The notes under the pieces were generated by a model. The model made no database searches and was not told the DNA's origin. It saw nothing but the letters and a program-made list of their open reading frames with translations. DNA of 64,000 nucleotides. Origin: a bacterium. Its GTDB lineage: Bacteria > Acidobacteriota > Polarisedimenticolia > Polarisedimenticolales > Polarisedimenticolaceae. The stretch lies in assembly GCA_024226515.1 (NCBI GenBank), contig JAAELQ010000281.1, forward strand, positions 1 through 64,000, given 5' to 3'. This document shows, one piece after another, positions 4,270 through 33,919 of the stretch. Position 1 is the first letter of the stretch. Every line of letters begins with the position of its first letter. A program made the position numbers and the translations under genes.

Positions 4270-4321
4270 GAGGCTAAATATATCCCGGAGCGCGCCGGAG
4301 GGTATCCGGCGCCTTGGTACC

Positions 4322-6039: not shown

Positions 6040-6173
6040 GGGCGTGTTCGCTCCGCTACGACGCAGCGCGCGTCCACGCGGCGCGCTTCCGCAACAGAGC
6101 TTAGCAGGTTTCGTGTACCACTCCGCGACCGCGTGCCGCTGTCGCGTCGTCTCCGTTCGCCTCCCGGGGCATA

Positions 6174-6716: not shown

Positions 6717-6718
6717 CG

Positions 6719-8029
6719 TTACGCGGGCCCGTGCGACTCCAGGCGAGCGAGGAACTCGTCCATCGCCGTCTCGAGTCGCGGGCGCAACGCCTCCGGCAGG
6801 GGATCGACCGCGGGGTTCTCGAACGCCAGCGGATTGATCGGCTGTCCCGAGCGGATCATCGTGTAGTGCAGGTGGGGACCGGTGGCGCGCCCCGTCGAGC
6901 CGACGAAGCCGATGACCTGGTTCTGCCGCACCTCGGCGCCGGCGCGGATCCCGCGCGCGGTGCTCTGCAGGTGGCCGTAGACCGTGACGTACTCGCTTCC
7001 GTGACGGATGCGAACCGCGCGGCCCAGCGGCCCGGACCAGCCCGACGAGACGACACGCCCGTCGGCCGTCGCCACGACCGGTGTCCCGGCGGATGCGGCG
7101 AAGTCCACGCCGTGATGCGGGGAGACCTTGCGCGTGATCGGGTGTCGCCTGGCGCTCGTGAACCGACTGCTGATACGACGGTAGTTCAGCGGGCTCTTGA
7201 GGAAGCTCTTGCGCAACGGGTTGCCGTCCGTGTCGTAGTAGCTGCCCGCTCCGTCGTCCTCCTCGACCCAGAACGCGATCGAGTCCGCCTCGGATCCGTC
7301 GTACACGGCCGCGAGCAGCTTCCCGAGTCCCAGCAGGTCTCCGCGTTTCGACGCGGTGTTGCCGAACGGCGGCAGGTCCGCCGGCACCGCGCCCAGGCGT
7401 TGTAACTCGTACACCACGCGGATCGTGTCTCCCGGGCGCGGGTCGATCAGCAGGTCGACGTCCCACTGGAACACGTCGGCGAAGGCCAGGGTCAGCGCCG
7501 TGCCCAGCGGCAGGGAGGAGAAGGCCTGGGCCACGGAACGCTCGATGACACCGCCGCCCTCGACGATCTCGGTCTCCACCGGCAGGGTTACCCACTCCGT
7601 GACCCACGATCCGGAGTCGGCCTCGGGCGGTGTCGCGCGCAGCATGCGCCGGTCCTCGGACCGTACCGAGATCCCGAGCAGCTTGCCCGCCTCGTCGCGC
7701 GCGGTGGCCAGTCCGCTGCGCGCCGGCAGCTTGCGCAGATCGATCTCCTCGCGCAGCACGGCGAGCAGCTCCTCGCGCGGGCCCGTTTCGAGCCCGAGCC
7801 GGCCGAGCGCCGCCACGACGTTGTCGCCGCGCGAGAGCGTCGTGTGGTCGATGATCGTGGGAGGAGGCGCCGCCGGCTCCGGCGCCGCGAGGACGAGCAG
7901 TCCGTGGGGGCCGCCCGCGGGGCCCGGGGTGTCGTCGGTCGAGTCCGGACCCGAGATCCAGAGCGCCGAGACCGTCACGAGCGCGACCCCGGCAAGGGCG
8001 AGCAGCCATGGCGATTGTCTGTGGATCAA
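6719..8029 (-). CDS. M23-family peptidoglycan endopeptidase
   Basis: This 436-residue protein has one N-terminal hydrophobic segment (about 7-25) and a C-terminal M23/LytM domain that cuts peptide cross-links in peptidoglycan. The zinc ligands are visible: HxxxD at 305-309 (HHGVD) and HLH at 386-388 (GPHLHY). The middle region resembles the OapA/LysM-like part of MepM-type enzymes, including an 'LIDPRPGDTIRVVYELQ' string. The start is likely the TTG at 8029, with GGAGA about ten bases upstream. Farther upstream the frame is Arg- and Cys-rich and would run into the divergent DUF1573 gene. Overlapping divergent promoters probably lie in 8030-8124. Confidence 0.9.
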   Translation of the reverse strand: MIHRQSPWLLALAGVALVTVSALWISGPDSTDDTPGPAGGPHGLLVLAAPEPAAPPPTIIDHTTLSRGDNVVAALGRLGLETGPREELLAVLREEIDLRKLPARSGLATARDEAGKLLGISVRSEDRRMLRATPPEADSGSWVTEWVTLPVETEIVEGGGVIERSVAQAFSSLPLGTALTLAFADVFQWDVDLLIDPRPGDTIRVVYELQRLGAVPADLPPFGNTASKRGDLLGLGKLLAAVYDGSEADSIAFWVEEDDGAGSYYDTDGNPLRKSFLKSPLNYRRISSRFTSARRHPITRKVSPHHGVDFAASAGTPVVATADGRVVSSGWSGPLGRAVRIRHGSEYVTVYGHLQSTARGIRAGAEVRQNQVIGFVGSTGRATGPHLHYTMIRSGQPINPLAFENPAVDPLPEALRPRLETAMDEFLARLESHGPA

Positions 8030-8052
8030 GGCCGTGTTTCTCCGCTGCCGAA

Positions 8053-8082
8053 TTGGGCAGGTCTGTCGATCCGCCGTATCAT
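8053..8082 (+). promoter_or_regulatory. Candidate sigma-70 promoter for the DUF1573 gene
   Basis: TTGGGC at 8053-8058 and TATCAT at 8077-8082 are separated by 18 bases, and the ATG of the DUF1573 gene follows 43 bases after the -10. On the opposite strand, TATGAT (8079-8084) could be a -10 for the M23 peptidase gene, so the two promoters would overlap and compete. This is a motif match by eye only. Confidence 0.4.
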
Positions 8083-8124
8083 AACGCTGACGCCGGTGGC
8101 CCCGACGAAACCACGAGAGACAAC

Positions 8125-9153
8125 ATGAGTGCACGAAGCTCCAGAATCCACAAACTCGGCCGCACGTTCCCGGTTGCGGCCGTCCTCGCGATCGCCCTCG
8201 TCGCTCTTCCGGCCGCGGCCGAAGAGCCGCCGGCCCCGAAGCTGGAGCTCGAGAGCGAGATGGTCGACATGGGCGACCTGGTCCACGGCGAGACCGGCAC
8301 GGCCGAGTTCATCCTGCGCAACACCGGTAGCGCGCCGCTGCGGATCGAGAAGGCCCAGCCGGGCTGCCGTTGCACGGTGGCCTCGTTCGACGAGGAGATA
8401 CTCCCGGGCGAAGCGGGGAAGCTGCGGGCCACGCTGGATACGCTGGAGCTTCCCGGCGGCGAGGTGTCGCGCTCGATCACCGTGTTCAGCAACGACCCGG
8501 GGCGGCCGCGGCGCAACCTCGTCGTCCGCGCGCGAGTGCTGACGAGCGTGCTGCTGCTGCCCGAGCGGCAGGTTCGGATGAGCAACCGCTTCGCCGAGCT
8601 GGCGCGCCCCAAGCTCCTCGTCAGGAAGGACCCGACCGAGACCGGCACGCTGGAGATCACCGACCTGAACGTCAGCGTGCCGTGGCTGACGGTGACGCCC
8701 ACGCGCGTCGAAGAGAAGCGGCCCGCGACCGACGGGCTGCCGACCGCGTTTCCCGGCGATTGGATTCTGGAGATGACCCTCGGCGGGAGGCCGGAGTACG
8801 GCAACAGCCTGCAGCGCGTCACGTTCAAGACCAACCTGCCGCGCCAGTCCGAGATCGAGTTTCAGATCGGCCTCGACCTGCGCGCGCCGCTCAATCTCCG
8901 GCCGAACCGTGTCGTGATCGAGGCCGGCGCGAACGCCCCGGCGGAGCCCGTGCTGGTCGGTGTGCGCCGCGACCTGTCCGCGGACGACGTGTCCTGGGAA
9001 GTGCACCCGAAGGCGATCAGCCTCGAGCTGGAGTCGTCGGGGCGTCGCTTCTACAAGGCCCACGTACGTTGGGACGGGGACACCGCGGGAGAGGGCAAGA
9101 TCACCTTCAGGGTCGGTGACGAGAGCATCGAGTTGCCGGTTCTGCGCAGGTAG
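8125..9153 (+). CDS. Exported DUF1573-domain protein
   Basis: This 342-residue protein begins with a signal peptide ending near AAAEE (about residue 32). A DUF1573 (immunoglobulin-like) domain follows, with the typical 'DMGDLVHGET...FILRNTGSAPLRIEK' layout and GCRCTVASF. Two further beta-rich segments follow. DUF1573 proteins are exported and widespread in Bacteroidota, Planctomycetota and Acidobacteriota, with unknown function. The ATG at 8125 is chosen because the signal peptide starts there. The gene is divergent from the M23 peptidase and converges with the TPR gene at 9165, leaving only 11 bases between the stops. Confidence 0.88.
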   Translation: MSARSSRIHKLGRTFPVAAVLAIALVALPAAAEEPPAPKLELESEMVDMGDLVHGETGTAEFILRNTGSAPLRIEKAQPGCRCTVASFDEEILPGEAGKLRATLDTLELPGGEVSRSITVFSNDPGRPRRNLVVRARVLTSVLLLPERQVRMSNRFAELARPKLLVRKDPTETGTLEITDLNVSVPWLTVTPTRVEEKRPATDGLPTAFPGDWILEMTLGGRPEYGNSLQRVTFKTNLPRQSEIEFQIGLDLRAPLNLRPNRVVIEAGANAPAEPVLVGVRRDLSADDVSWEVHPKAISLELESSGRRFYKAHVRWDGDTAGEGKITFRVGDESIELPVLRR

Positions 9154-9164
9154 CTCCGGCTCGA

Positions 9165-9668
9165 CTACGGAAGCCGGTCCAGCGCCCGGCGCGTGTTGGT
9201 CGCCTCGTCGGAGTCGACGCCCGTCGCGGCGTTCCAGATGGCCAGGGCGCGTTCCAGCGCGGCGCGCGCGTCCTCGTGTCGACCCTGATACGACAGGACC
9301 ATTCCCAGGTTGTGCAGCGTCGCGGCCAGCCGCGGCTGCTCGGCGCCGAGCAGGCGTGTCCACATCTCGACCGATCTGCGGTACAGCGGTTCGGATTCGA
9401 CCCAGCGCTCGTTGCGCCGGTAGAGGTCCGCGAGCCCGTCGACGGCGCGCGCGGTGAGCAGATCTTCGGTACGCGATTCCTCGATGACCGAGCGGTACAA
9501 CCGCTCGGCCTCCCGGTCACGATCGGCTGCCTCGGCGGATCGCGCGTGCTCCAGCGTCTCGCGCCAGCGGTCGAACTGCTCGGCCTTCTTGCGGGCGTGC
9601 GGTGCGACCTCCGCCGCGCGTCCGCCCACCGCCACCAGGAACATCGCCAGCAGGAACACGACACGCAT
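9165..9668 (-). CDS. Exported TPR-repeat protein
   Basis: This 167-residue protein starts with a signal peptide (MRVVFLLAMFLVAVGGRAAE). It then has three to four TPR units of the kinesin-light-chain type, such as 'LYRRNERWVESEPLYRRSVEMW' and 'LGMVLSYQGRHEDARAALERALAIW' (two units cited). It should be periplasmic and bind another protein. The ATG at 9668 has a strong ribosome-binding site, AGGAGGT, nine bases upstream. It shares no operon with its neighbours: the upstream gene on this strand ends 80 bases away. Confidence 0.87.
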   Translation of the reverse strand: MRVVFLLAMFLVAVGGRAAEVAPHARKKAEQFDRWRETLEHARSAEAADRDREAERLYRSVIEESRTEDLLTARAVDGLADLYRRNERWVESEPLYRRSVEMWTRLLGAEQPRLAATLHNLGMVLSYQGRHEDARAALERALAIWNAATGVDSDEATNTRRALDRLP

Positions 9669-9748
9669 GGTTCCGAACCTCCTCGAGTCAATATGAGGTC
9701 CGGGCGCCGGACGGCCAGTCGGGGCCGATTCCGGGCGTGTCGGGCGGG

Positions 9749-10294
9749 TCAGTGGCCGGCGAAATGCTCGTCGAGGTGAATGTCGAGGTGCTCGGCGATC
9801 GGCCCGCGGCACCGGCGCCGGCCGTTGCGGGCGACGCGCGGCTGACGGTCGAGCCTGTCGAGGATCTTGCGCACCGTGCGGATCGGCACGCTGACGGCAA
9901 CGTGCTCGTCGCCGTCATTGATCACGACCTCGAGCTGTCGCCGGTGCTTCTGCACGCGCACGTGATCCCGTCCGTCGCTGAAGTCGACCAGGACGAAGTC
10001 GTCCGAGCTCTCGAGCTGGGCCCAGGAGTCGCGCACGGCGGGCAGGATCGGTCCCAGCTCGCACGACGCCTCGGCGACGATCGACGAGGGGACGAGGCCC
10101 AGCGCGAGGTCCACGAGGCCCGCGGGGACGGAGATCGACAGCCGATCCCCGTCGTCGGGCGCGACGTCGACATCGATCGACCCGGCGCGGTAGATCGTCG
10201 CTCCCGTCACCCCGACGGCGAGCACGAAGACCAGGGCCAACGCGAGGCCGACGCCGAGGAACACGCGCGTCGTCGTGGACCAGCGCTTACTCAC
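9749..10294 (-). CDS. Membrane-anchored protein with beta module paralogous to 10287-10841
   Basis: This 181-residue protein has one membrane span (about 12-34) and an acidic extracytoplasmic part. I do not recognise a family. In it the unit 'DHVRVQKHRRQLEVVINDGD' followed by HVAVSVPIRTVRKILDRL repeats the pattern seen in the upstream protein, and an earlier unit reads DRLSISVPAGLVDLALGLVP. The start is the GTG at 10294, which overlaps the TAA of the upstream gene (10287-10289), so translation is coupled. The C-terminal 30 residues are rich in Arg, Cys and His (RNGRRRCRGP). The pair looks like two parts of one envelope system. Confidence 0.72.
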   Translation of the reverse strand: MSKRWSTTTRVFLGVGLALALVFVLAVGVTGATIYRAGSIDVDVAPDDGDRLSISVPAGLVDLALGLVPSSIVAEASCELGPILPAVRDSWAQLESSDDFVLVDFSDGRDHVRVQKHRRQLEVVINDGDEHVAVSVPIRTVRKILDRLDRQPRVARNGRRRCRGPIAEHLDIHLDEHFAGH

Positions 10295-10841
10295 CGTCGT
10301 TGCTCGAGTCGATCCAGATGCGAACCGACGTGTCGTCGGAGTCGATGGTGACCAGGTCGTCGTCGTAGTCGGCGAGGGCCTCGAGCGCCGCAATCAGATC
10401 GAGCTCGTCGGGGTCGTTGCCGAGCAGGGCGTCGACGACCTCGAGCGGCAGCCGCACGCGGACGTTGTCGCCGTGACGTTCGTCAACGTCGATCAACAGC
10501 AGCCCGCCGTCCTTGGAGACGCGAACCTCGTCGCCGTGATCCTTGACGCGCACGAAGTCCGCGTCGGGGGCCTCCTGGACGGCCTCGAGAATCTCGCGCA
10601 GGTTGATCCCTTCGAGGTCGAACTCGTCGAGCAGCAGCCGTCCGCCGCGCAGCTCGTCGGTCTGGATGGCGGGCAGCAGCGCCTCCACCATGCCGAGCGG
10701 GACGTTGACGGCGACCAGCTCACCGTCGTGGTCGTGATCCTGCACGCGCACGTGCAACCACTTGTCGTCGAGGCCCGCCAGGGCGATCCCGCTGAAGAGA
10801 ACCAGGGCCAGGCTTGCAATTGCGAATCGTCTCGTGTTCAT
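10287..10841 (-). CDS. Exported acidic protein with repeated 'HVRVxD...VPLxxVxxLL' module
   Basis: This 184-residue protein begins with a clear signal peptide (MNTRRFAIASLALVLFSGIA) and is very acidic afterwards. It contains two copies of a short module: a strand 'HVRVQDHDHDGELVAVNVP' then LGMVEALLPAI, and later 'FVRVKDHGDEVRVSKDGG' then VRVRLPLEVVDALLG. The alternating His/Asp strings (DHDHDG, DERHGD) could bind metal ions, which is inference. The ATG at 10841 has GGAGG upstream. It forms a coupled two-gene unit with 9749-10294. I do not know its function. Confidence 0.75.
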   Translation of the reverse strand: MNTRRFAIASLALVLFSGIALAGLDDKWLHVRVQDHDHDGELVAVNVPLGMVEALLPAIQTDELRGGRLLLDEFDLEGINLREILEAVQEAPDADFVRVKDHGDEVRVSKDGGLLLIDVDERHGDNVRVRLPLEVVDALLGNDPDELDLIAALEALADYDDDLVTIDSDDTSVRIWIDSSNDGE

Positions 10842-10878
10842 CGTTTCCTCCAGAGCGCGGGAGCGTCGCGTCCCACAC

Positions 10879-10915
10879 TTGACGAACGGAACAACCCCCT
10901 CCGAGGTTTCGTCAA
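10879..10915. repeat. Inverted repeat in a divergent promoter region (candidate operator)
   Basis: TTGACGAA (10879-10886) and TTCGTCAA (10908-10915) are perfect 8-base inverted arms separated by 21 bases. They lie in the 120-base gap between the divergent genes starting at 10841 and 10962. The spacing of the arm centres is about 29 bases, close to three helical turns, as seen for paired operator sites. The binding protein is unknown. Confidence 0.4.
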
Positions 10916-10921
10916 ACCGCG

Positions 10922-10950
10922 TTGCATGCGTGAGAAAGCGCGTGTAATCT
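10922..10950 (+). promoter_or_regulatory. Candidate sigma-70 promoter close to the start codon
   Basis: TTGCAT (10922-10927) and TAATCT (10945-10950) are 17 bases apart. The start codon of the lipoprotein gene follows at 10962, so the transcript would be almost leaderless. A similar string, TAATCTGGG, precedes the gene at 34527. Confidence 0.35.
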
Positions 10951-10961
10951 GGGGCCAGGCG

Positions 10962-12314
10962 ATGCGCCGATTGTTGCTAATTCTATTCGTCTCAGGGCTT
11001 TACGCCGGTTGCTCAGGCCGGGACCCCGGGGTCGACACCGTTCCCGCGCCGACGGCCGGAGGGGCGATTCGATACGTGGCCGGTGACGAGCACGCCGGTC
11101 GCCTCGTCGGAAGAACGTCCGTCGGCGCACCCGTCGCGACGCGGGCGATGGCCGACGACCCACGCTGCCGCAGCGTCGTCTCCGGAGATGCGGCGGCGTA
11201 CCCGGACGGCCGGATCCCGAACGGCGCCGACATCCTCTCGGGCTGGAACGAGCGGCGCTGGCCCAGTGGCGACGCCGCCTGGCTGCTCGAGGGCCTCGAA
11301 CTGGATCGCGCGGGGGAGGACGGCTCGACCCTGCTCGTGTGCGAGGTCTCCGACGCCGAACTCGCGGCGCGGCTGGGCCATCCCGACCTGTGGATCTGGA
11401 ACGACCGCGCCGGTGGGTTCCCGTCCGGGCCCGGACCGTTCCGCTTCGTCGCGGACGGCTCGCTCGAGGCCAACCCGGCGCACGTCGCCGCGGGCCCCTG
11501 GGTCGAGCGCGTGCGCGACGTGCACTCCGCGGAGACCGACCCGGCGCTGATGCTGCGTCTGGGCGAGGCCGACGTCGCCGTGCTGTACGGGCGATCGGCG
11601 GCCGAGATGCTACGCGAGCCCCCGGACGCGATCGAGCTGACCGAGCTGCCGTCGTGGGACAAGAGCTACGCGCTGTGGCTCGACACGTCGCGGCGCTGGC
11701 TCAACGATCCGTCGTTCCGGCGCTGGCTGGCGGGCGCGATCGATCGCGAGTCGGCGGCGGGGTTCCTGTTCGCCGGCGCCGCCCGCCCGGCCTGGTCGTT
11801 GATCTCTCCCGCCCGGACGGCGGCGGCGTGGACCTCCGTCGCGCGCCGCCCGGTCTCTCCGGGTTCGACGCCACGCCTGTCCCTGCGCTACGACCCGCTC
11901 GACCCGCATGCCGAGCTCGTCGCGCAGAGGCTGCGCGCCGAGTTGGGGTTGCACGGCATCGAGCTGTTGCTGGGGCCGGGGAGCGGCTCGGCGGACGATG
12001 CGGCGGACATGCGACTCGTCGTGCACCGGCCCCCGGTCGCGGACCCGCTGATCGCGCTGCAGCAGACGCTCGCCGGTCTCGCGGACGCGCCCGAGCACGT
12101 CCGCGGGATGCTGCGTTCGTCCCGCGGCCTCGCCGACGCCGAGGCGCGCCGCGCCGCAGCCGAGCTCGTCGAGAACGGACTGCTGGTCGAGGCGCGATTG
12201 ATTCCGATCCTGCGCTTGCGCGCGTGGCTGGCCCACGACTCCGCGCTGCGCGGCGTCGAGCCCGGTCCTTTCGGCAGGCTGTACCTCGAACGCGCCTACT
12301 GGAAGCGGCCTTGA
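10962..12314 (+). CDS. Family-5-like solute-binding lipoprotein
   Basis: This 450-residue protein starts with a lipoprotein signal ([17 protein letters not shown], lipidated Cys at 17). The rest resembles the SBP_bac_5 (peptide/nickel ABC transporter) fold, with segments such as [20 protein letters not shown] and [19 protein letters not shown] that match the 'wfN...PF.d.rVRqAi..AiDr' region. No ABC permease or ATPase gene is adjacent. Instead its TGA overlaps the TTG start of a sensor kinase, so it may feed ligand information to that kinase rather than to a transporter. This is inference. The ATG at 10962 is chosen because it begins the signal peptide. Confidence 0.8.
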
Positions 12315-18346: not shown

Positions 18347-19129
18347 TCAGGCGCCCGGGCTCCAGATCCGCTCCAAGGCCTCGGCCGCTCGCATCGGCAA
18401 CCGATGCTCGACGAGGTCGGACAGCTCCGTGCGTGCCGGGTTGATCTCGACCGTGGGGATCCCGCAGGCCCTCGCGCTCATGACCGGCCCCGAGATGTAC
18501 GGGAACAGCGCCGACGTGCCGACGACCAGAACCAGGTCCCGGCGCTCCAGCGCGATGCCGAGCCTCGCGACGGCTTCGTCCGGCAGCATCTCACCGAACA
18601 GGACGACCCGCGGTCGGATCAGTCCGTCGCACGTCGCGCAGCGCGGGGGCAGGGGAACCTCGCCCTCGTAACCGGCGAGCAGCTCCTGCGCCGTGGACCG
18701 TTCGCGGCAGGCCGTGCACTCCAGCTCGCCGGCGTTGCCGTGGATCTCGACGACGTTCTTGCTGCCGGCGTCGAGATGGAAACCGTCGACGTTCTGCGTC
18801 ACGACCCAGGTCTCCGGCCTGGCCCGCTCGATCTCGGCCATGACCTCGTGGCCGCGATTGAAGCGCCCGCCGGCGACCGCCGAACCGATCTGCCACAGGT
18901 ACTTCCAGGTCAGCTCGGGCCGCGTGGCGAGCATCGGTCCGCTCAGGGCCTCCTCGATCGGCATGCCCTCGTCGGTGTCGGCGTCCGCGTACAGCCCCCC
19001 GATCCCGCGGTAGGTCGGCAGCCCCGAGTCCGCCGAGAGCCCGGCGCCCGTGATGAACAGCGCTCGCTCGGCTGCCGACAGCAATCGAGCCACCGCGGAC
19101 AGCGTCGTGCTCTGTTCGTCTCCGGTCAT
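18347..19129 (-). CDS. Sir2-family NAD-dependent protein deacylase
   Basis: This 260-residue sirtuin has all core motifs: GAGLSADSGLPTYRG at 28-42 for NAD binding, TQNVDGFH at 111-118, the catalytic His at 130 (VEIHGNAG), and a structural zinc site with cysteines at 138, 141, 164 and 167. It removes acyl groups from lysines using NAD+ in the cytoplasm. The length and the two CxxC pairs fit the bacterial CobB/SIR2 type. It stands alone on the minus strand between a haemoglobin lipoprotein gene and a SnoaL-like gene 22 bases upstream. Confidence 0.95.
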   Translation of the reverse strand: MTGDEQSTTLSAVARLLSAAERALFITGAGLSADSGLPTYRGIGGLYADADTDEGMPIEEALSGPMLATRPELTWKYLWQIGSAVAGGRFNRGHEVMAEIERARPETWVVTQNVDGFHLDAGSKNVVEIHGNAGELECTACRERSTAQELLAGYEGEVPLPPRCATCDGLIRPRVVLFGEMLPDEAVARLGIALERRDLVLVVGTSALFPYISGPVMSARACGIPTVEINPARTELSDLVEHRLPMRAAEALERIWSPGA

Positions 19130-21359: not shown

Positions 21360-21714
21360 GTTGTGCTCCTTCCGGCGCGCTGCGCAGGTCGCAGGCTGAC
21401 GGCAACTGGAATCTTATACGGGAATCTGCTCCGCGCGCCAAGCGGAGGTCGGCCGGATTGCGACGATCCCGCGTCCGAACTGCCACAGCCGTGTCCCGCC
21501 GCCCACACCCGAAACGACCCAGGTTGATGTGATTCGACCCCTTCGTTTTGGGTAACTCGTTGACTGTAAACGACTTGAGGCTTCCTGGGCCGGGTCGGCA
21601 CGGCGTTCGCTGTAGGAGGGGGTGCGCCGCGTCGCAGGACGACGGCGTCGGGTCGAGCCGGACCCGATCCCCGAGCACCTCGTTCCGCCGGCCGGGACGC
21701 AGAGGAGACAGATC
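21360..21714. other. Divergent intergenic region (355 bases)
   Basis: This gap separates the divergent genes starting at 21359 and 21715. It contains a strong minus-strand promoter at 21413-21441 and the ribosome-binding sites of both genes. TTGACT near 21560 on the plus strand could be a -35 for the TPR gene, but no good -10 follows. I see no small open frame with coding character. Confidence 0.6.
21413..21441 (-). promoter_or_regulatory. Sigma-70 promoter for the 568-residue exported protein
   Basis: On the minus strand, TTGGCG (21441-21436) and TATAAG (21418-21413) are separated by exactly 17 bases. The start codon lies about 54 bases downstream with AAGGAG before it. This is the clearest housekeeping-type promoter in the window. 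Confidence 0.6.
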
Positions 21715-22761
21715 ATGACTCGATCCCAGAACGATAAGAGCGACACGAAGCTGTTGATCGCCGTGGCCGGCGTCGTTGCAACCGGAGCGATCGGTATCGC
21801 CCTGCTGGCGGCCTACTCGGTCGACGAGCCCACGAAGACGACCGCGCGCAACGAGACCCGTCTGCGCAGCGTCGCGACGCAGAGCGTCGAGCCGGTCATG
21901 CCAGCGATGGCGGCCGACGAGACGACCGCCGCGCCCGACGCCTTCGAGTTGGCCTCGCTGGTGAAGGACAGCGGCTCCACCGTCGGCCCCGAGATCGTCG
22001 GCGTAGAAGATAACGAGATCGAGATCGTCGTCGACCCCGACGCGAACTTCATCAAGGTCGGCACCGAGGCGTACCAGGCGCGTGACTTCGCCACCGCCGC
22101 GGCGTACTTCACCGCCGAGGTCGAGGCGCACCCGGGCCGCCCGTGGACGCAGTACATGCTCGGCCTGTCGACGTGGAAGAACGACGACCTCTCCCGCGCC
22201 TCCGCCGCCCTGACCGAGGCGACGACGCTGGACCCCGACATGCTGCGCGGGTGGATCAACCTGTCGCGCGTGCAGAACGAGCGCGGCGAGTTCGACGCGG
22301 CGCTGGTCGCGGCGCAGGCCGCGCTGACGGTCGATCCCGCCGACGCCACGGCCCGCTTCCAGGAAGCGCGCAGCCTGCGCAACCTGGGCCGCGTGGACGA
22401 GGCCCTCGTCTCGCTGGAGGCCGGCATCGCCGCTGACGGCGAGAACGCCTACGCGCACAACCTGCTCGGCCTGATCCGCATCGAACAGGGGAACCCCGGT
22501 GACGCCGTCGAGCCGCTGCGTCGCGCGATCGAGCTCGAGCCCGAGGTGGCGTACATGCACAACAACCTCGGCATGGCGCTCGAGCTGAGCGACGACCGCG
22601 AGCAGGCCGTGCAGTCCTACGCCCGCGCCTCCGAGATCGCCCCGGACCACGCCAAGGCGGCGAGCAACCTCGCGCGGCTGCAGCCGACGATCGAGGTCGA
22701 GGTCGCCGGCGAGATCGAGGCCGTCGAGTCGGAAGGCACCGACGTGGCCGACGCCTCGTGA
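21715..22761 (+). CDS. Membrane-anchored TPR-repeat protein
   Basis: This 348-residue protein has one N-terminal membrane span (about 13-33), a polar linker of about 70 residues, and five to six TPR units from about residue 105 (for example AYAHNLLGLIRIEQGNPGDA and AYMHNNLGMALELSDDREQA). It ends with an acidic Val/Glu-rich tail (VEVEVAGEIEAVESEG). The TPR part should lie outside the cytoplasm if the anchor is in the usual orientation. The ATG at 21715 is chosen for the site AGAGGAGA just upstream. It ends four bases before the stop of the convergent amidohydrolase gene. Confidence 0.87.
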   Translation: MTRSQNDKSDTKLLIAVAGVVATGAIGIALLAAYSVDEPTKTTARNETRLRSVATQSVEPVMPAMAADETTAAPDAFELASLVKDSGSTVGPEIVGVEDNEIEIVVDPDANFIKVGTEAYQARDFATAAAYFTAEVEAHPGRPWTQYMLGLSTWKNDDLSRASAALTEATTLDPDMLRGWINLSRVQNERGEFDAALVAAQAALTVDPADATARFQEARSLRNLGRVDEALVSLEAGIAADGENAYAHNLLGLIRIEQGNPGDAVEPLRRAIELEPEVAYMHNNLGMALELSDDREQAVQSYARASEIAPDHAKAASNLARLQPTIEVEVAGEIEAVESEGTDVADAS

Positions 22762-22764
22762 GCT

Positions 22765-25488
22765 TCAGTCGGACGCCGCCCCGCCCACCCCGGGCCGGGC
22801 GGCGTACTTGCGGTACAGACGGTCGTGACGGTTCTCCTTCGGGTCGACCTCGCGGCCGTCGACGAACACGCGCTCGATGTCGGTGCGGATCTCCAGCGGG
22901 TCGCCGTCGGTGACGATCAGGCTGGCCGATTTCCCGACCTCGATCGAGCCCAGCACGTGATCGAAGCCGAGGATGCGCGCGGGGTACAGCGTGACCGCGC
23001 GCAGCGCCTCGTCGCGCGGCAGGCCGAATGCCGCCGCCATCGCCGCCTGGTAGGGCAACGTGCGCGTCATCGGCGCGCCGAAGCGGCTTCCCGAGGACGC
23101 GATGCAGAACGTGACTCCCGCCTCGTGCAGCTTGGACGCGACGGTGAACGGCGTGTCGTACGGCTCGTCCTCGCGGGCGGGAAGCGCCAGCACCGAGGTC
23201 AGGATCACCGGGATCTGCTTGTCGCGCAGCGTGTCCGCGATGCGCCACAGGTCGCGGGCCCCGGCGAGGACGATGCGGATCTCCTGCTCGTCCGACCATT
23301 CGATCGCGCTCTCGAGCTGGCGGATCTCGCTCGCGTGGACGATCACCGGCAGCGTACCGTCGAGCACCGGAAGCATGGCCTCGAGTCCGGGGTCGTGGTC
23401 CGGCGCCGCCCGGCCGTCGGCGGCCGCTCCTCGCGCCTTGGCGTAGGCCCGCGCGTCGTCGAACAGCTCGGTCAGCTTGCGCAGTCGCTCCTCGCGCTGC
23501 TTCTTCTGATCTTCCTCCGACGGTCCGCCCCCGCGCGGGCGGCGCACGTCGAACGACGGCCAGCGCACGTGTAGCGCCAGCGGCCCGCCGGCGCGCAGGT
23601 CCTCCCAGGTCCAACCCTCGAGGCGAATCAGCGTCGACGTGCCGCTGACCAGACCGCCGCCCGGAACGGTCGCCACGTGCGTCAACCCGTTGGCGCGCGT
23701 GACGGGGATCAGCTCGGAGTCGGGGTTGACCGCGATCGCCGTGTTGACGTTGGGGTTGACGTCCCCCGTCTCGTTCGTGTCGACGCTGCCGGCGACCGAG
23801 CCGATCTCGGTCAGGCCGACGGCGGTGTTGACGTCGATCAGGCCGGGGTAGACGTGCTTACCCGCGGCATCGACCACGCGCGCGTCGGTGAGCGGGGCGA
23901 GTCGCGCCCCGACGGCGACGATCTTCCCGCGCTCGAACGAGACGGTGCCGTCGGCGATCGTCTCGCCGGACCCGGTGTGGACCGTCGCGTTCACGATCGA
24001 GACGCGGCCCTCGTTCTCCGTCGGGCGATCGAGATACTCCACGCGCGGCGGCGCGTACGGCTCGCGCGTCTCCGCGGCCGGCTCCTCCGCTGCGGCCTCG
24101 TCGTCGGCACCCTCTTCCTTCTTCTCTCCGGATGCCTCGTCCGGCTTCTTGCGTCCGCTCTTGACGGCCGCGATCAGCTCGGCCCGCTCGCGCTCGACGT
24201 CGGCCCTGCCGGCGAGATCCCGTTCGCGATCGAACTCCTGCCGCCCCTCGACCCAGGTCTGCTCGACGATCGTGTAGACGCTGAGCGGGTCGCCGGACCA
24301 CACGACGAAGTCGGCGTCCTTGCCGTTCTCGAGCGATCCCGTGCGCTCGTCGATGCCGAGCTGTACGGCGGCGTTGAGCGTGACGAAGGCCAGCGCATCT
24401 TCCTCGCCGACCCCGCCCCACTTGACCGCCTTGGCCGCCTCGAGATTCATGCGCCGCGCCAGCTCGGATGAGTCGGAGTTGAACGTGACCGAAACGCCGC
24501 GCTCGTGCATCAACGCGCCGTTGTGCGGGATCGCGTCGTACGCCTCGAGCTTGTAGGCCCACCAGTCGCTGAACGTCGACGCGCCCGCGCCGTGCTGCGC
24601 CAGCTCGTCGGCGACCTTGTAGCCCTCGAGCACATGCTGGAACGTCCCGATCGTGACGCCGAACTCCTCGGCCACGCGCAGCAACGCGAGGATCTCGTCC
24701 TGACGGTACGAGTGACTGTGGATCGCGCGCTCGCCGGCGAGGATCTCGTCGATCGCCTCGAGCTGTAAGTCACGGCGCGGCGGCTCGCGCCGCGTCTGTT
24801 GCCTGGCGGAGAGCGCCTCGTACTCGTCCCACTCGCGCCGGTAGTCGCGGGCCGCGAGGAAGCGCTCGCGAATCGACTCCATCACGCCCATGCGCGTCGC
24901 CGGGTAACGCTGGGGCACGCCGGGGCGCCTGAAGTTCGAGCGCTTGGGGTTCTCACCCAGCGCGAACTTGATCCCGGGCCTGGCCTCGGGTATCGGCAGC
25001 TCGTCGACGCCCGCGTTCCACCTGAGCTTGATCACCGCGTCCTGCCCGCCGATCGAGTTCGCCGAGCCGTGCAGCAGGTGCGCCGCCGTCAGGCCGCCCG
25101 CGAGCTGGCGGTAGATGTTGATCGAGCGCGCGTCGATCACGTCGCCGATGCGTACCTCGGCCGTGACGTTGTTCGAGCCCTCGTTGACGCCGCCGCGAAT
25201 CGCGGTGTGGCTGTGGCAGTCGATCAGGCCGGGCGTGACGTGCTTGCCCTCTCCGTCGATGATGAACGCATCGCCCGGCGCGCGCAGTCCACGACCGACC
25301 TCGGCGATCTTGCCGTTTCTGACGATCAGGTCGGCGTTGTCGAGCTTGCCGTCGGGACCCTGTGTCCAGATCGTCGCGCCCTGCACCATGACCGTTCCCG
25401 GCGGCTCACCGTCGGCGGCCCCGATCGCACCCGCGACCAGGGAGGCACAGAGCAGAGCCGCGCCGTAGCGGATGTCCGCCCGTTTCAT
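22765..25488 (-). CDS. Exported tandem amidohydrolase (two domains, second lacking metal ligands)
   Basis: This 907-residue protein has a signal peptide (about 1-24) and two amidohydrolase-type halves. The first half keeps the metal motif HSH at 92-94 (GLIDCHSHT) and later HSHS and HNGA elements. A charged linker rich in Lys and Glu (about 445-490) follows. The second half repeats the family layout, but its entry motif reads GLIDVNTAVG, so the HxH pair is absent. Amidohydrolases of the imidazolonepropionase/dihydroorotase superfamily cleave amide or ester bonds with bound zinc. The second half may be regulatory or use another site. Its ATG overlaps the stop of the upstream amidohydrolase gene as ATGA. 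Confidence 0.88.
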   Translation of the reverse strand: MKRADIRYGAALLCASLVAGAIGAADGEPPGTVMVQGATIWTQGPDGKLDNADLIVRNGKIAEVGRGLRAPGDAFIIDGEGKHVTPGLIDCHSHTAIRGGVNEGSNNVTAEVRIGDVIDARSINIYRQLAGGLTAAHLLHGSANSIGGQDAVIKLRWNAGVDELPIPEARPGIKFALGENPKRSNFRRPGVPQRYPATRMGVMESIRERFLAARDYRREWDEYEALSARQQTRREPPRRDLQLEAIDEILAGERAIHSHSYRQDEILALLRVAEEFGVTIGTFQHVLEGYKVADELAQHGAGASTFSDWWAYKLEAYDAIPHNGALMHERGVSVTFNSDSSELARRMNLEAAKAVKWGGVGEEDALAFVTLNAAVQLGIDERTGSLENGKDADFVVWSGDPLSVYTIVEQTWVEGRQEFDRERDLAGRADVERERAELIAAVKSGRKKPDEASGEKKEEGADDEAAAEEPAAETREPYAPPRVEYLDRPTENEGRVSIVNATVHTGSGETIADGTVSFERGKIVAVGARLAPLTDARVVDAAGKHVYPGLIDVNTAVGLTEIGSVAGSVDTNETGDVNPNVNTAIAVNPDSELIPVTRANGLTHVATVPGGGLVSGTSTLIRLEGWTWEDLRAGGPLALHVRWPSFDVRRPRGGGPSEEDQKKQREERLRKLTELFDDARAYAKARGAAADGRAAPDHDPGLEAMLPVLDGTLPVIVHASEIRQLESAIEWSDEQEIRIVLAGARDLWRIADTLRDKQIPVILTSVLALPAREDEPYDTPFTVASKLHEAGVTFCIASSGSRFGAPMTRTLPYQAAMAAAFGLPRDEALRAVTLYPARILGFDHVLGSIEVGKSASLIVTDGDPLEIRTDIERVFVDGREVDPKENRHDRLYRKYAARPGVGGAASD

Positions 25489-27188
25489 CGCGTGCCTCCT
25501 TCCGGGCCGCTCGTCCGAGAGCCCTCGACCTCGATCGACCTGGAGCCCATCTCGGCCGTGCCCGTGAAGCTCTCGCCCTCGATCACCACCGTCACCTCGC
25601 TGCTGGGGCGCCCCTCGCGCGCGGGGAAGATCAGCGTCATCACGTTGCCCTCGAGCTGCACCTCGTCGAACGTCACCGTGCCGCCGCGCGTCTCGGCCGT
25701 GCCGCCGAACTCGGGCCGCTCACCGGAGATCGTCCAGGTGCGCTGGATCGTCCGCGAGCCGAACTCGAAGACGACGGACCATTCGCCGCGCGGGTCGACG
25801 ACGGCGTCGGGGTCGCCCTGCGGTTTCTCCTTCACCTCGCGCTCGTGCGGGATGCCGTCGACGAACACGCGCCGGATCTCCGTCTGTTCGGCGAACAGCG
25901 GTCCGTCGGCGACGATCAGGTTGGCGATCTTGCCCGGCTCGATGCTGCCCACGCTGCGCGAGACGCCGAGCAACTCGGCCGGCACGCTGGTCAGCGCCGC
26001 GAGCGCGATCTCCTCCGGCAGCCCTGCGGCGATGATCTCGCGTAGGTTCTTGTAGAAGTTGGCGGTGTTCTTCAGGCCGTTCGTGGTGAGGGCGAAGCGC
26101 ACGCCGGCCTCGTGCAGACGCAGCGCTCCCTGCGGCGCGTCGACCCAGCGACGCAGCGCGCGGCGGCCGACCGCCAGCGCGTCGTGCGGTTCCTTGACGT
26201 CCGGCTTGTCCGGGAAACCGACCGGCAGGATCAGCGCGCGGCCCGTCGCGGCGATCTCGTTCGCCATCTCCCACTCGTGCCCCGCCCCCTCGATCACGAC
26301 GTCCAGCTCGAACTCGTCGGCAAGTCGCGCGGCGAGCAGCGCGTTCTCCGGCCCGTCGACCTCGAAGAACAGCGGCGCGTCGCCGCGCAGTACGGGGCCC
26401 AGCGCCTCGAACGCCGCGTGGTGCTCGGGGCGCCGCATGCCGCGCGGGTCCGCGGCGTAGCGCTCGCTCCAGTTCGCGTAGCGTTCGGCGTCGAGGAAGC
26501 TCTGGCGCAGCGCGGCGACCGTGCCCATCAGGCTGGTCGGGTAGCCTTCGCCGAAGCGGCCGCGCTCGAACGCCGCGTGCTGAGCGACGCCCTCGCGCAG
26601 GATCAGCGCGGGCACGGGAACGCCCTCCGCCAGCAGGATGGCCGTGCTGCTGCCGCGCAGGATGCCGCTGCCGGGGGTGGCGAGCATCACCGTGATGCCC
26701 AGATCGCGGTGCCGCTCGATCGCGTCGGCCCGCGTACCCTCGAAGGACTGCAGCGCGTCGCGCACACGACGCTCGGCGTGGATGCGTTTCAGCGGATGGA
26801 CGGCGCCCGCGGGCGTCGGGTTGCCGCCGCCGCGTGTCGCGCCCGGGCTTTCGCCACCGGCCGCCGCCGCGCGCGGCTCCTGAACACCGAGCGTGCCGTG
26901 CGCGTCGATCAGGCCGGGGTAGACCCAGCCGCCGCCGGCGTCGATCTCGACGGCGTCGGACGGGATCTCGATGCCGCTTCCCACGGCCTCGATCAGGCCG
27001 TCGCGTACCACGACCACGGCGGACTCGATCGCCTCGCCCGGCGTCGGGACCACGGTCGCGTTGTGCACCGCGTAGACGCGCGGCCGCTCCGCGGCGAGGA
27101 TCGATCCGGCCGCCAGGGCCAGAATCGTCAGGCCGAGCGCGCAAATCGCCGGCCTGAAGACGGATCTCGAGTCCCTCGGTCGCAGCAT
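25485..27188 (-). CDS. Exported amidohydrolase-family protein with altered metal site
   Basis: This 567-residue protein has a signal peptide (about 1-33) and an amidohydrolase core with GLIDAHGTLG at 92-101. The family's HxH is reduced to His97 only, the second His being replaced by Thr. The C-terminal composite domain (PGKIANLIVADG) is intact. A beta-rich segment of about 110 residues follows (WSVVFEFGSRTIQRTWTISG), resembling lipocalin-like or DUF-type additions. The ATG at 27188 has GAGGAGGGG upstream. An upstream ATG would add 18 Arg-rich residues ahead of the signal. It is coupled to the tandem amidohydrolase gene and the two probably act on related substrates. Confidence 0.85.
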   Translation of the reverse strand: MLRPRDSRSVFRPAICALGLTILALAAGSILAAERPRVYAVHNATVVPTPGEAIESAVVVVRDGLIEAVGSGIEIPSDAVEIDAGGGWVYPGLIDAHGTLGVQEPRAAAAGGESPGATRGGGNPTPAGAVHPLKRIHAERRVRDALQSFEGTRADAIERHRDLGITVMLATPGSGILRGSSTAILLAEGVPVPALILREGVAQHAAFERGRFGEGYPTSLMGTVAALRQSFLDAERYANWSERYAADPRGMRRPEHHAAFEALGPVLRGDAPLFFEVDGPENALLAARLADEFELDVVIEGAGHEWEMANEIAATGRALILPVGFPDKPDVKEPHDALAVGRRALRRWVDAPQGALRLHEAGVRFALTTNGLKNTANFYKNLREIIAAGLPEEIALAALTSVPAELLGVSRSVGSIEPGKIANLIVADGPLFAEQTEIRRVFVDGIPHEREVKEKPQGDPDAVVDPRGEWSVVFEFGSRTIQRTWTISGERPEFGGTAETRGGTVTFDEVQLEGNVMTLIFPAREGRPSSEVTVVIEGESFTGTAEMGSRSIEVEGSRTSGPEGGTR

Positions 27189-28668: not shown

Positions 28669-29130
28669 CTACTCGGTGGTCACGGATTCGCGGCGCTCGA
28701 GCGCTGCCAGCATCGTGTGCCAGGCCAGCGTCGCGCACTTCACCCGGACCGGAAAGTCGCGGACCCCCGCGAAGACGATCAGCTTGCCGAGACGCTCACG
28801 GTCCGCGTCAGGGTCCGCGTCGCGGTCGGAGTTGCCGGTGACCAGGTCGTGGAAGTTCTTGAACTTCTGCTCGACCTCCCACAGGCTCCTTCCCGTCAGC
28901 GCCTCGGTCATCATCGAGGCCGAGGCCGTGCAGATCGCGCAGCCCTTCCCCTGAAACGTGACGCGCGACACCTGCTCCTCGTCGGACTTGATGAACACGG
29001 TGATGCGGTCGCCGCAGACGGGGTTGTACCCCTCGGACTCCGCGTCGGCGTCTTCCATCGCCTCGAAGTTCCGCGGCCGCTTGCCGTGGTCGAGGATCAT
29101 CTCCTGGTACAGTTCGCGTAGTTCGGACAT
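28669..29130 (-). CDS. sufU: SufU Fe-S scaffold / sulfur-transfer protein
   Basis: This 153-residue protein is a SufU/IscU-type protein. The three conserved cysteines are visible: in NPVCGDRI, in GKGCAICTASA and in VRVKCATLAWH. The insert between the second and third Cys is longer than in IscU, as in SufU, which takes sulfur from SufS with a zinc-bound site. It acts in the cytoplasm in Fe-S cluster assembly. The ATG at 29130 shares one base with the sufS TGA, so the two are coupled. The start MSELRELYQEMILDH matches the family N-terminus. Confidence 0.95.
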   Translation of the reverse strand: MSELRELYQEMILDHGKRPRNFEAMEDADAESEGYNPVCGDRITVFIKSDEEQVSRVTFQGKGCAICTASASMMTEALTGRSLWEVEQKFKNFHDLVTGNSDRDADPDADRERLGKLIVFAGVRDFPVRVKCATLAWHTMLAALERRESVTTE

Positions 29131-30395
29131 CAGCCCAGCAATTCTATCGCCTTTGGGATCGAGGCCGCGAGAACGTCGAGGTCCTCGCGCGTATTGTACA
29201 GGGCCAGCGAGGCACGCGCAGTCGCGGCAAGGCCGAAATGGTCCATCACCGGCTGGGCGCAGTGGTGGCCGGCGCGCACGGCGACGCCCTCCATGTCGAG
29301 CACGGTGCCGAGGTCGTGGGGGTGAACGCCGTCGATGACGAACGACAGGATGCCGCATTTCTCGGCCGCCGTGCCGACGAGCGTGAGACGCGGAATCTCC
29401 TCGAGCAGCCGCGTTCCGTAGTCCAGCAGATCGCGCTCGTAGGCCTCGACCCGGTCCATGCCGATCTGTTCCAGGTAGTCCACGGCGGCGCCGAGGCCCA
29501 CGGCTCCGGTGATGTCCGGCGTGCCGGCCTCGAAGCGATGCGGCGGGTCCTTGTACGTCGTCTCGTCGAACGTCACGGAGTGGATCATCTCGCCGCCACC
29601 GAGAAACGGCCCGGTCTTCTCCAGCAGTTCGGCCTTGCCGTACAGCGCACCGATGCCGGTCGGCCCGAACATCTTGTGTCCGGAGAACGCGAAGAAGTCG
29701 CAGTCCAGCTCGCGGACGTCGATCTTCTCGTGCGGCACTCCCTGAGCCCCGTCGACGACGACGATCGCGCCGCACGCGTGCGCCGCGTCGATGATCCGGC
29801 GCATCGGATTGCGGGTGCCGAGGGCGTTCGACGTGTGGGCCACGCAGACCATCCGGGTGCGCGGCCCGAGTAGGCGTTCGTATTCGTCCATACGCAGCGA
29901 GCCGTCGTCGGCGATCGGGACGATGCGCAGCTCGGCGCCCGTCCGACCCGCCAGCATCTGCCACGGCACGATATTCGAGTGGTGCTCCATCTCGGTGAGC
30001 ACGATCTCGTCGCCCGGACCCAGGTGGTCGCCGCCGTAGCCGTGGGCCACGAGGTTGATCGCCGTGGTCGTGCCGCTGGTGAAGACGATCTCTCCGCAGC
30101 TCTCGGCCCCGACGAAACGTCCGACCTTGCAGCGCGCCGCCTCGAAAGCCTCGGTGGCGCGGACGCTGAGCTGGTACAGGCCGCGGTGCACGTTGGCGTA
30201 GTCCGACTCGTAGAACCGCCGCATGCTGTCCAGCACCTGGCGCGGCTTCTGCGTGCTGGCCGCATTGTCGAGGTAGACGAGCGGCTTGCCGTGCACCGTG
30301 GTCGAGAGGATCGGGAAATCCGCCCGCACTCGTTCGACGTCGAACGGCGACGGCGCGCGTGCGATATCGGAGTCGCCGCTCAACGCATCACCCAC
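29130..30395 (-). CDS. sufS: SufS cysteine desulfurase
   Basis: This 421-residue class V aminotransferase-fold enzyme takes sulfur from cysteine, making alanine and a persulfide for Fe-S assembly. The PLP lysine lies in FSGHKMFGPTG and the sulfur-carrying Cys in RAGHHCAQPVM, as in SufS/CsdA. The N-terminal part (FPILSTTVHGKPLVYLDNAA) is typical. The start is a GTG at 30395, overlapping the end of sufD by eight bases; a TTG four codons later is an alternative. It is placed between sufD and sufU in the SUF operon. Confidence 0.96.
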   Translation of the reverse strand: MGDALSGDSDIARAPSPFDVERVRADFPILSTTVHGKPLVYLDNAASTQKPRQVLDSMRRFYESDYANVHRGLYQLSVRATEAFEAARCKVGRFVGAESCGEIVFTSGTTTAINLVAHGYGGDHLGPGDEIVLTEMEHHSNIVPWQMLAGRTGAELRIVPIADDGSLRMDEYERLLGPRTRMVCVAHTSNALGTRNPMRRIIDAAHACGAIVVVDGAQGVPHEKIDVRELDCDFFAFSGHKMFGPTGIGALYGKAELLEKTGPFLGGGEMIHSVTFDETTYKDPPHRFEAGTPDITGAVGLGAAVDYLEQIGMDRVEAYERDLLDYGTRLLEEIPRLTLVGTAAEKCGILSFVIDGVHPHDLGTVLDMEGVAVRAGHHCAQPVMDHFGLAATARASLALYNTREDLDVLAASIPKAIELLG

Positions 30396-31694
30396 CGATC
30401 TCGGTCAATCGCGTGGCGACCGCGGCCTCGAGCGCCTCGCGCAACCGCGGGATCGCGATGCGCTCCAGCACCTCGCCCGCGAACGCCGAGACCATCAGGT
30501 GGCGCGCCTCGGTCGCGGAGAGTCCGCGGCTGCGAAGATAGAAGATCGCGTCCGCGTCCAGTCGGCCCACGGTCGCGCCGTGCGTGCACTTCACGTCGTC
30601 GGCGTAGATCTCGAGCTGCGGCCGCGTGTGGGCCAGTGCCGTGTCCGACAGCAGCAAGTTGGGGTTCGACTGCTTCGCATCGGTCTTCTGCGCGTCCTCG
30701 CGCACGATGATGCGGCCGCTGAACACGCCGCGCGAACGACCGCCGAGGACGCCCTTGTACAACTCGCGGCTGTCGCCGTGCGGCTTGGCGTGGTCCAGCA
30801 CGGTGTGGTTGTCCACGTGCTGCGCCTCGTGCGTCGCGTAGAGTCCGTCGAGTGCGCACTGTGCGCGCTCGCCGTCGAGCACCGCGCGCAGGTCGTGGCG
30901 CACGATCCTGCCGCCGAGGTCGATGCCCACGGCGCGATAGTGGCTGTCGCGACCCTGGGTGCTCCAGCCGCCGCCGATGTGGTACGCCTGGTCGCTCTCC
31001 AGCTGCAGCGTGTAATGATCGAGCTCTGCGCCATCGCCGACCGAGACGCGGGACGCGGCGTTGGTCCAGTACGCACCGTCTTCGAGACTACCGAACGACT
31101 CGACCACGGTGGCTCGTGCGCGGTCGCCGACGTGAATCAACGTGCGCGAGTGCGTCGCGGCGGGTTTGTCGCCGCCGCTGGACAGATACATGACGTGCAG
31201 CGGTTGTTCGAGTGTGGCGCCGTCGTCGACCAGCACCGCCGCCCCGTCCTCGAACAGGCTGGCGTTGATCGCCGCCATGGCCGAGGCGTCGCGCGGCGCG
31301 TCCAGCTCCAGCAGTTTCTTCAAGCGTTGCGGCTGTTGCTCGATGGCGTCGGTCAGGCTGCCGCACCAGGCGCCGGCGGCCGGAGCGCCGACCTGCGACA
31401 GGCCGGGGACGATGCGTCCGTCGAGAAAAACGAGGCGCGGTCCGTCGACCCACTGGGCAAACGCAGGCAGGCGACCCTCGTCCAGCTGCACCGCGGGGGC
31501 GGGACGGAACGGAGTCTTCGCGATCGCGTCGAGGCTCGTGCTCTTCCACTCCTCGAGTGCGGCCGTGGGCCAGCCGAGCTGCTCGAAGCGCTCGGACGAC
31601 GCGCGGCGCCAGTCGCGCAGCCAGTCGGGCCCCTCGGCGGCGAGCTTCTTCTCGAGCTCGGCGAACGCGGCCAGCGAGGTGACGCTCGTGTTGC

Positions 31695-31698
<4 letters not shown>
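30388..31698 (-). CDS. sufD: SufD subunit of the SufBCD Fe-S assembly complex
   Basis: This 436-residue protein belongs to the SufB/SufD family. The right-handed beta-helix core and the C-terminal helices are recognisable, including 'DDVKCTHGATVGRLDADAIF' and RGLSATEARHLMVSAFAGEV. SufD pairs with SufB and the ATPase SufC to build clusters on SufB. The conserved His in KCTHGATVG is present. Its ATG overlaps the sufC stop as ATGA. The length is typical. Confidence 0.95.
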
Positions 31699-32453
<755 letters not shown>

Positions 32454-32470
32454 TTCTGATTTTCTCCGGA

Positions 32471-33919
<1,449 letters not shown>

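Follow-up and report, generated by a model that had tools for sequence, protein, structure and literature searches.

A putative exported amidohydrolase trio in which one complete metal site is conserved alongside two altered paralogs

The window, that is the whole stretch of 64,000 nucleotides that was analyzed, carries two coupled genes, P0002 and P0001, which encode three amidohydrolase-type domains: B in P0002, and D1 and D2 in P0001 (Table 1). The sequence-only reading had described two coupled amidohydrolases, and both open reading frames prove to be real; their stop and start overlap as ATGA, and each start is closely preceded by a GGAGG-like site. A hydrophobic, export-signal-like stretch is found at the N-terminus of both proteins. 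Across the 80 loci of a genome-collection scan, such a hydrophobic stretch precedes the first domain of an open reading frame in 139 of 142 cases and an internal domain in 2 of 89. The C-terminal region of P0002 shows no Pfam match at E 0.1; in the AlphaFold model of a fused B–D1 relative (L062), the segment after B is beta-rich (strands 412–501). In the P0001 model, blocks within residues 451–470 of the linker have mean pLDDT values of 54 and 65. A TPR-repeat protein (21622–22761, + strand) stops three bases short of the end of P0001, so that the two genes lie tail-to-tail. Elsewhere in the window, SUF-type genes at 29130–33919 (− strand) encode a cysteine desulfurase-like class-V aminotransferase, two SufBD-core proteins and an ABC ATPase, with a SufU-like sequence (judged by eye) next after them, and a Sir2-family protein (Pfam 5e-40) is found at 18347–19129 (− strand).

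Table 1. Features of the P0002–P0001 gene pair, in positions of the window
Feature	Position	Strand	Basis or remark
P0002, 567 aa, export-signal-like N-terminus, domain B and C-terminal region	25488..27188	-	ATG at 27188
P0002 stop TGA	25485-25487	-	gene 27188-25485
Domain B, P0002 residues 31-460, amidohydrolase-type, metal site incomplete	25809..27098	-	Pfam Amidohydro_1 and aligned ligands
H97-G98-T99 of B, aligned with D1 HSH	26892..26900	-	alignment and DNA
P0002 C-terminal region, residues 461-567	25488..25808	-	
ATGA overlap of P0002 stop and P0001 start	25485..25488	-	DNA
P0001, 907 aa, export-signal-like N-terminus, D1, charged linker and D2	22765..25488	-	
Domain D1, P0001 residues 27-440, complete amidohydrolase domain	24169..25410	-	3ooq match by sequence and fold
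H92-S93-H94, beta-1 metal motif of D1	25207..25215	-	H92, H94 in 106/106 distinct D1
K174 of D1, beta-4 lysine, expected carboxylated bridge	24967..24969	-	106/106 distinct D1
H259 of D1, beta-5 ligand	24712..24714	-	106/106
H285 of D1, beta-6 ligand	24634..24636	-	106/106
D339 of D1, beta-8 Asp, ligand and expected general base	24472..24474	-	106/106
D1-D2 linker, P0001 residues 441-485, charged	24034..24168	-	
Domain D2, P0001 residues 486-907, amidohydrolase fold, metal site incomplete	22768..24033	-	fold match 2aqv
N554-T555-A556 of D2, replacing HSH	23821..23829	-	alignment
E561 to D570 of D2, conserved acidic residues specific to D2, loop after beta-1	23779..23808	-	

Both proteins score over the Pfam cut-offs as amidohydrolases; for P0002, the Amidohydro_1 family gives a whole-protein E value of 4.1e-12 with its best stretch at residues 356–445. 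Among solved structures, both P0001 (5.1e-54) and P0002 (7.5e-24) come closest in sequence to 3ooq. This amidohydrolase of Thermotoga maritima MSB8 belongs to the family of D1, with 35% identity in the aligned part, the six metal ligands and the GENPKR motif in common; however, its solved chain is a single domain, it has Pro at the position of H140 in D1, and the positions of R345 and K353 also differ. We found no paper on 3OOQ in the open-licence literature. By fold, D1 matches 3ooq with a Z-score of 48.5 and an RMSD of 1.9 Å over 372 residues, and D2 matches the isoaspartyl dipeptidase 2aqv with a Z-score of 24.5 and an RMSD of 3.5 Å over 301 residues. The amidohydrolase fold is thus assigned to D1 and D2 by comparing the model with structures and to B by sequence (Pfam), the B–D1 model of the relative matching amidohydrolase structures through its D1 part. 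The cog1228-type prolidases and carboxypeptidases (3feq, 3mtw and 2qs8) and imidazolonepropionase (2g3f) share the amidohydrolase fold with Z-scores of 22–25. The ligand set of the cog1228-type carboxypeptidases is identical to that of D1, and we know of no pseudoenzyme partners of these prolidases and carboxypeptidases or of imidazolonepropionase. Among the best 25 of 70 NCBIfam matches for P0001 and the best 25 of 49 for P0002, all models fall far below their cut-offs. Two candidate identities were rejected on this ground: imidazolonepropionase (HutI), with 99.7 bits for P0001 and 35.4 bits for P0002 against a cut-off of 298.15, and Xaa-Pro dipeptidase (NF051886), with 91.2 and 45 bits against a cut-off of 500.

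The AlphaFold models have a mean pLDDT of 91.8 and a pTM of 0.92 for the D1–D2 chain of the window, and of 91.2 and 0.88 for the B–D1 chain of Robertkochia sediminum (L062). The alignment for the P0001 model took 22 of 24 fused, 26 of 54 D1-only and 28 of 54 D2-only rows, and that for the B–D1 model took 49 of 56 B–D1 rows, 11 of 17 B-only rows and P0002. The high pTM values suggest a confident relative placement of the domains, and may derive in part from a tendency of AlphaFold to pack paralogous domains like any dimer.

In amidohydrolases with this ligand set, two divalent metals are bridged by a carboxylated lysine and a hydroxide, and the aspartate acts as the base. The two-metal set (HxH, carboxylated Lys, His, His, Asp) is complete in D1 and incomplete in D2 and B. 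The domain alignment places all six ligands in D1 at H92, H94, K174, H259, H285 and D339. Their equivalents are N554, A556, R642, H718 (kept), G743 and S799 in D2, and H97, T99, A206, E276, G301 and N370 in B, which leaves one of the six in each. By analogy, D1 should bind two divalent metals with K174 as the carboxylated bridge together with a hydroxide, and with D339 as the base. The sequence-only reading had placed a complete HSH in the first half of the 907-residue protein, which is borne out by H92–S93–H94, and an HGT in its neighbor, where H97–G98–T99 indeed aligns with H–S–H. Its VNT at the corresponding place in the second half was one residue out of register; the β1 segment D90–C91–H92–S93–H94 of D1 aligns with D552–V553–N554–T555–A556 of D2, and the equivalents are N–T–A (554–556).

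We collected 110 loci from a protein search of 100 genomes, including the genome of the window, and from the genome-collection scan, which contained at least 584 relatives, 80 of which were kept; two of the 110 duplicate others. B, D1 and D2 occur together in 103 of the 110 loci (101 of 108 without the duplicates), contig-end fragments being counted. The domains are arranged as B–D1 and D2 in two genes (51 loci), B followed by a fused D1–D2 (17), B–D1–D2 in one chain (17), three separate genes (15), or D1–D2 followed by B (3). Six loci lack B and one lacks D2. Four of the six stop at a contig end near the gene, and two (L024 in G063 and L029 in G072) have B in the genome on another contig; in G063, B lies at C23, and D1 and D2 at C27. 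L016, the only locus lacking D2, is cut off by a contig edge, and in G088 a D2 match turns up on a different contig. Labeled by the phyla stated in the record titles (eight phyla), the 80 scan loci fall into Bacteroidota (44), Planctomycetota (18), Acidobacteriota (10) and Verrucomicrobiota (2), with one each in Zixibacteria, Armatimonadota, Hydrogenedentota and Pseudomonadota and one titled Actinomycetota. Culturable environmental carriers of the locus include Singulisphaera acidiphila and a Winogradskyella, and single-chain B–D1–D2 proteins are found in Planctomycetota. A trio is also present on a plasmid of Hymenobacter volaticus (L131), where several reading frames share the B and D1 parts and the annotation lists them as shorter amidohydrolase genes.

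Co-occurrence was assessed in the 100 genomes of the same phylum, own genome included, with cut-offs picked post hoc in gaps of the match lists. The 30 genomes with D1 at E ≤ 1e-120 are the same 30 that have B at E ≤ 1e-50, and neither cut-off is reached in the other 70. Another 13 genomes have a D1-like match in the range from 1e-108 to 1e-80 and lack B at E ≤ 1e-50. One of these, G051, shows a B-type match (2.7e-43) where a contig begins; in the remaining 12, the P0002 match is at best 9.2e-41, and such matches may represent D2-type domains. Gene order and fusion are evidence of coupling, not of stoichiometry.

Across this sample, the altered paralogs are conserved alongside the live one. 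All six ligands are intact in 106 of 106 distinct D1 domains, duplicates left out. Of 105 distinct D2 rows, 51 retain none of the six, 46 retain one and 8 retain two; for the 96 distinct B rows, the numbers are 70 with none, 21 with one, 4 with two and 1 with three, and six of these 96 have no residue at the β1 column, so that their counts are lower bounds. These ligand counts omit domain rows of less than about 300 residues (two D1 and three D2), six loci without B and six with B fragments. The scan patterns for D1 relatives contained K174 and D308, and conservation at these positions is therefore biased; in the 29 loci found without patterns (protein search, window excluded), K174 is present in 29 of 29 and all six ligands fully agree. 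The proposal that only one of the three domains is a classic metal hydrolase is thus strongly supported and holds for the whole sampled family. In metalloBSH of Bilophila wadsworthia, activity was reported to be lost when any one of the six equivalent ligands was changed to alanine (PMC13081902). Like D1, metalloBSH is a secreted amidohydrolase that shares the six ligand types; unlike the trio, it acts on bile salts (PMC13081902). The two are compared here at the level of the superfamily. Since each ligand is essential in metalloBSH, domains with 0–3 of the six should be dead as such. Classical metal chemistry is very probably absent from D2 and B.

We compared what D2 conserves in place of the ligands. 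Eleven positions are conserved in at least 93% of D2 rows and in less than 30% of D1 rows (G558, L559, E561, D570, S591, R598, P609, P644, V761, P770 and L787). E561 occurs in 97% and D570 in 100% of D2 rows, and at these columns 97% and 100% of D1 rows, respectively, are gapped. Eight of the 11 fall in the loops that follow barrel strands, on the former catalytic face, compared with 95 of 279 positions overall (p 0.009), and the same enrichment is seen at laxer cut-offs (13 of 20, p 0.003; 15 of 28, p 0.02); the loops were delimited manually on the DSSP assignment for the model, and the kinship of the sequences makes these p values optimistic. The pattern points to an interface or ligand role of the former catalytic face of D2, without telling which. 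The loop enrichment and the invariance of D570 would suit a re-invented site in D2 or B, in which E561, D570, E573 and W626 of D2 bind a metal or ligand for new chemistry or ligand sensing. However, Gly, Pro and hydrophobic residues dominate the list, which is what loop shape or an interface would call for, and none of the listed D2 and B positions is a conserved His or Cys, so we regard this reading as unlikely. It is similarly improbable that D2 and B merely bind or anchor, holding substrate polymers or the envelope, with the catalysis of D1 unaffected. The export-signal-like stretch on every separate polypeptide and the additional beta-rich region after B in the model of a relative would agree with such anchoring, but conservation falls on the former catalytic face, and packing on D1 accounts better than a loose tether for the fusions and for the confident models of two domains.

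One-metal chemistry in D2 or B, which the sequence-only reading had offered as an option, fares worse. In its favor, the β5 His is retained in 45 of 105 D2 rows, including H718 of the window; the altered domain of one pair from a related subfamily (L126) has an HxH together with the β6 His; and one B (L100, 4108–8520), alone among the 99 aligned B rows in having an HxH near β1, also keeps the β5 His. However, the β4 Lys is retained in only 1 of 105 D2 and 1 of 96 B rows, the β6 His in 0 of 105 and 0 of 96, and the β8 Asp in 12 of 105 and 11 of 96. An HxH near β1 is found in 109 of 109 D1, 0 of 108 D2 and 1 of 99 B rows (the window being counted twice and two duplicate loci included), and apart from that one B, no HxH is supplied elsewhere near β1 in the D2 and B rows. 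With the HxH, the β4 Lys, the β6 His and mostly the β8 Asp gone, neither an α-site-only centre nor a β-site-only centre, which is the NagA-like type, remains. These losses across the D2 and B relatives make the usual kinds of one-metal chemistry very unlikely, and open-licence papers yielded no relative that carries this change and is proven to be active.

Selection and phylogeny were examined for the three domains. For pairs with dS < 1 (Nei–Gojobori), dN/dS is 0.076–0.124 for B (3 pairs), 0.045–0.178 for D1 (7 pairs) and 0.104–0.170 for D2 (4 pairs). The pairs are L015/L016, L014/L015, L007/L008, L029/L030 and L031/L033, with L007/L010 and L019/L020 for D1 only. They come from 19 pairs that were run, of which two are identical duplicates and the rest have dS > 1 or are saturated; among defined values with dS > 1, the ratio rises to 0.51, and many are undefined from saturation. 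Mean identity to the window is 53% for D1, 40% for D2 and 33% for B, so that the dead domains are faster-evolving than D1 yet constrained. In a tree of 136 subsampled sequences, B, D1 and D2 each fall into a clade of their own, with support values of 1.0, 0.85 and 0.64, the D2 clade being weakly supported; the tree is midpoint-rooted without a true outgroup and therefore does not settle how many losses occurred. That D2 and B are decaying gene duplicates without function, as the loss of most of their catalytic residues might imply, is scarcely credible, because the trio is kept together, B and D1 co-occur, D2 and B are retained in eight phyla (by title), and the dN/dS of B and D2 (0.076–0.170 among close pairs, dS < 1) lies within the D1 range. 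Co-occurrence, varied fusions and purifying selection instead support the structural roles that had been suggested for D2 and B.

Pairing of a complete with an altered domain extends beyond the trio. We found 13 such pairs in related subfamilies within the phylum and two more in Novosphingobium and Qipengyuania (L132 and L134). The complete member has six ligands in 15 of 15 pairs, and the altered members have 0–3 by a quick alignment; this alignment misplaces K174 in some rows, and a slower one gives K174 in 20 of 20. D1-like matches without B, and pairs without a neighboring B, indicate that B is dispensable in some related systems. Of the 13, one is a second, divergent complete/altered pair in the genome of the window itself (L111, G000:C227:37180-39629), which L121, L124, L125, L128 and L129 resemble, and three are complete/altered pairs in tandem in L122 (G045, 3670–11367), the last of them fused. 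In L126 (3882–6536), the altered partner keeps HTH and the β6 His and has lost the Lys, the β5 His and the Asp, an apparent half-way state as far as its sequence indicates; the altered partner in L127 (2934–6725) is half-decayed, with fewer ligands than that of L126. Solo homologs occur in Acetoanaerobium, Nonomuraea, Monoglobus and Cytobacillus (L133 and L135–L137), each with a single domain within about 8 kb. These four and 3ooq have six ligands each, and by eye a signal sequence is not evident at the four N-termini. H140, R345 and K353 of D1 are invariant in 109 of 109 D1 rows, absent from the four solo homologs and 3ooq, and present in 1, 1 and 3, respectively, of the 15 other paired complete enzymes, a distribution that suggests a trio-specific role relating to the substrate or a partner.

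Gene neighborhood was tried as a clue to the substrate in the 80 scan loci and given up, as the largest neighbor clusters cover only 11 and 10 loci. Both are confined to Flavobacteriaceae or close groups by title, and the 10-locus cluster is PepD-type dipeptidase-like by eye and lies on the opposite strand. A cluster of ABC-transporter ATPases, drawn from 7 loci outside these groups, is scattered in position and strand, and the smaller clusters each involve few loci. On the Qipengyuania citrea plasmid (L134), the pair is flanked by a peptide MFS transporter and an FKBP-type isomerase; these neighbors hint at peptide substrates, a single case that is suggestive only.

Dead paralogs in complexes have precedents. 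In bacterial aspartate transcarbamoylase, pseudo-dihydroorotase is reported to be an inactive amidohydrolase-superfamily homolog required in the enzyme complex (PMC7053772); its partner is a transcarbamoylase and not an active sister, whereas two dead sisters accompany one live domain here. The trypanosome AdoMetDC–prozyme is reported to be a dead paralog functionally complexed with a live one (PMC5201418), but in an unrelated enzyme family, in a eukaryote, and with one dead partner. By title and abstract, we found nothing describing the trio system in open-licence papers, and the passages on metalloBSH (PMC13081902) do not describe it.

Taking these results together, we think it likely that the trio is an exported enzyme–pseudoenzyme hetero-complex of three paralogous amidohydrolase domains, in which D1 is catalytic and B and D2 are structural or gating. 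P0001 and P0002 would form one exported (periplasmic or surface) hetero-complex; given the fusions and the pTM of the two models, physical association of the parts is highly probable. We infer that the two-metal centre of D1 (HxH, carboxylated Lys, His, His, Asp) activates water, and D1 probably hydrolyzes a small amide or peptide-like substrate. The substrate class is a guess, and a peptide-like substrate taken by itself is somewhat less likely than not. D2 and B would keep the barrel and probably the oligomer contacts without the metal site, replacing identical subunits of an inferred ancestral homo-oligomer and fixing or gating the active site of D1. The simplest history would then run from an oligomer of identical subunits through export and duplication to one live subunit, with sisters that keep a packing role. 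A broader reading falls a little short of an even chance: that this is a widespread, undescribed exported enzyme class in which a homo-oligomer became an obligate three-part complex, with dead faces completing or gating the live site, live/dead pairing in several subfamilies, and half-decayed intermediates still visible.

The annotated plasmid records name these genes only 'amidohydrolase' or 'amidohydrolase family protein', and such plain labels leave the dead two thirds of the system invisible in annotation. The three-gene, two-gene (with varied fusions) and one-gene forms make up a natural experiment on the change from homo-oligomer to hetero-complex. The trio thereby lets one ask why dead enzyme copies persist, a question testable by ordinary protein chemistry.
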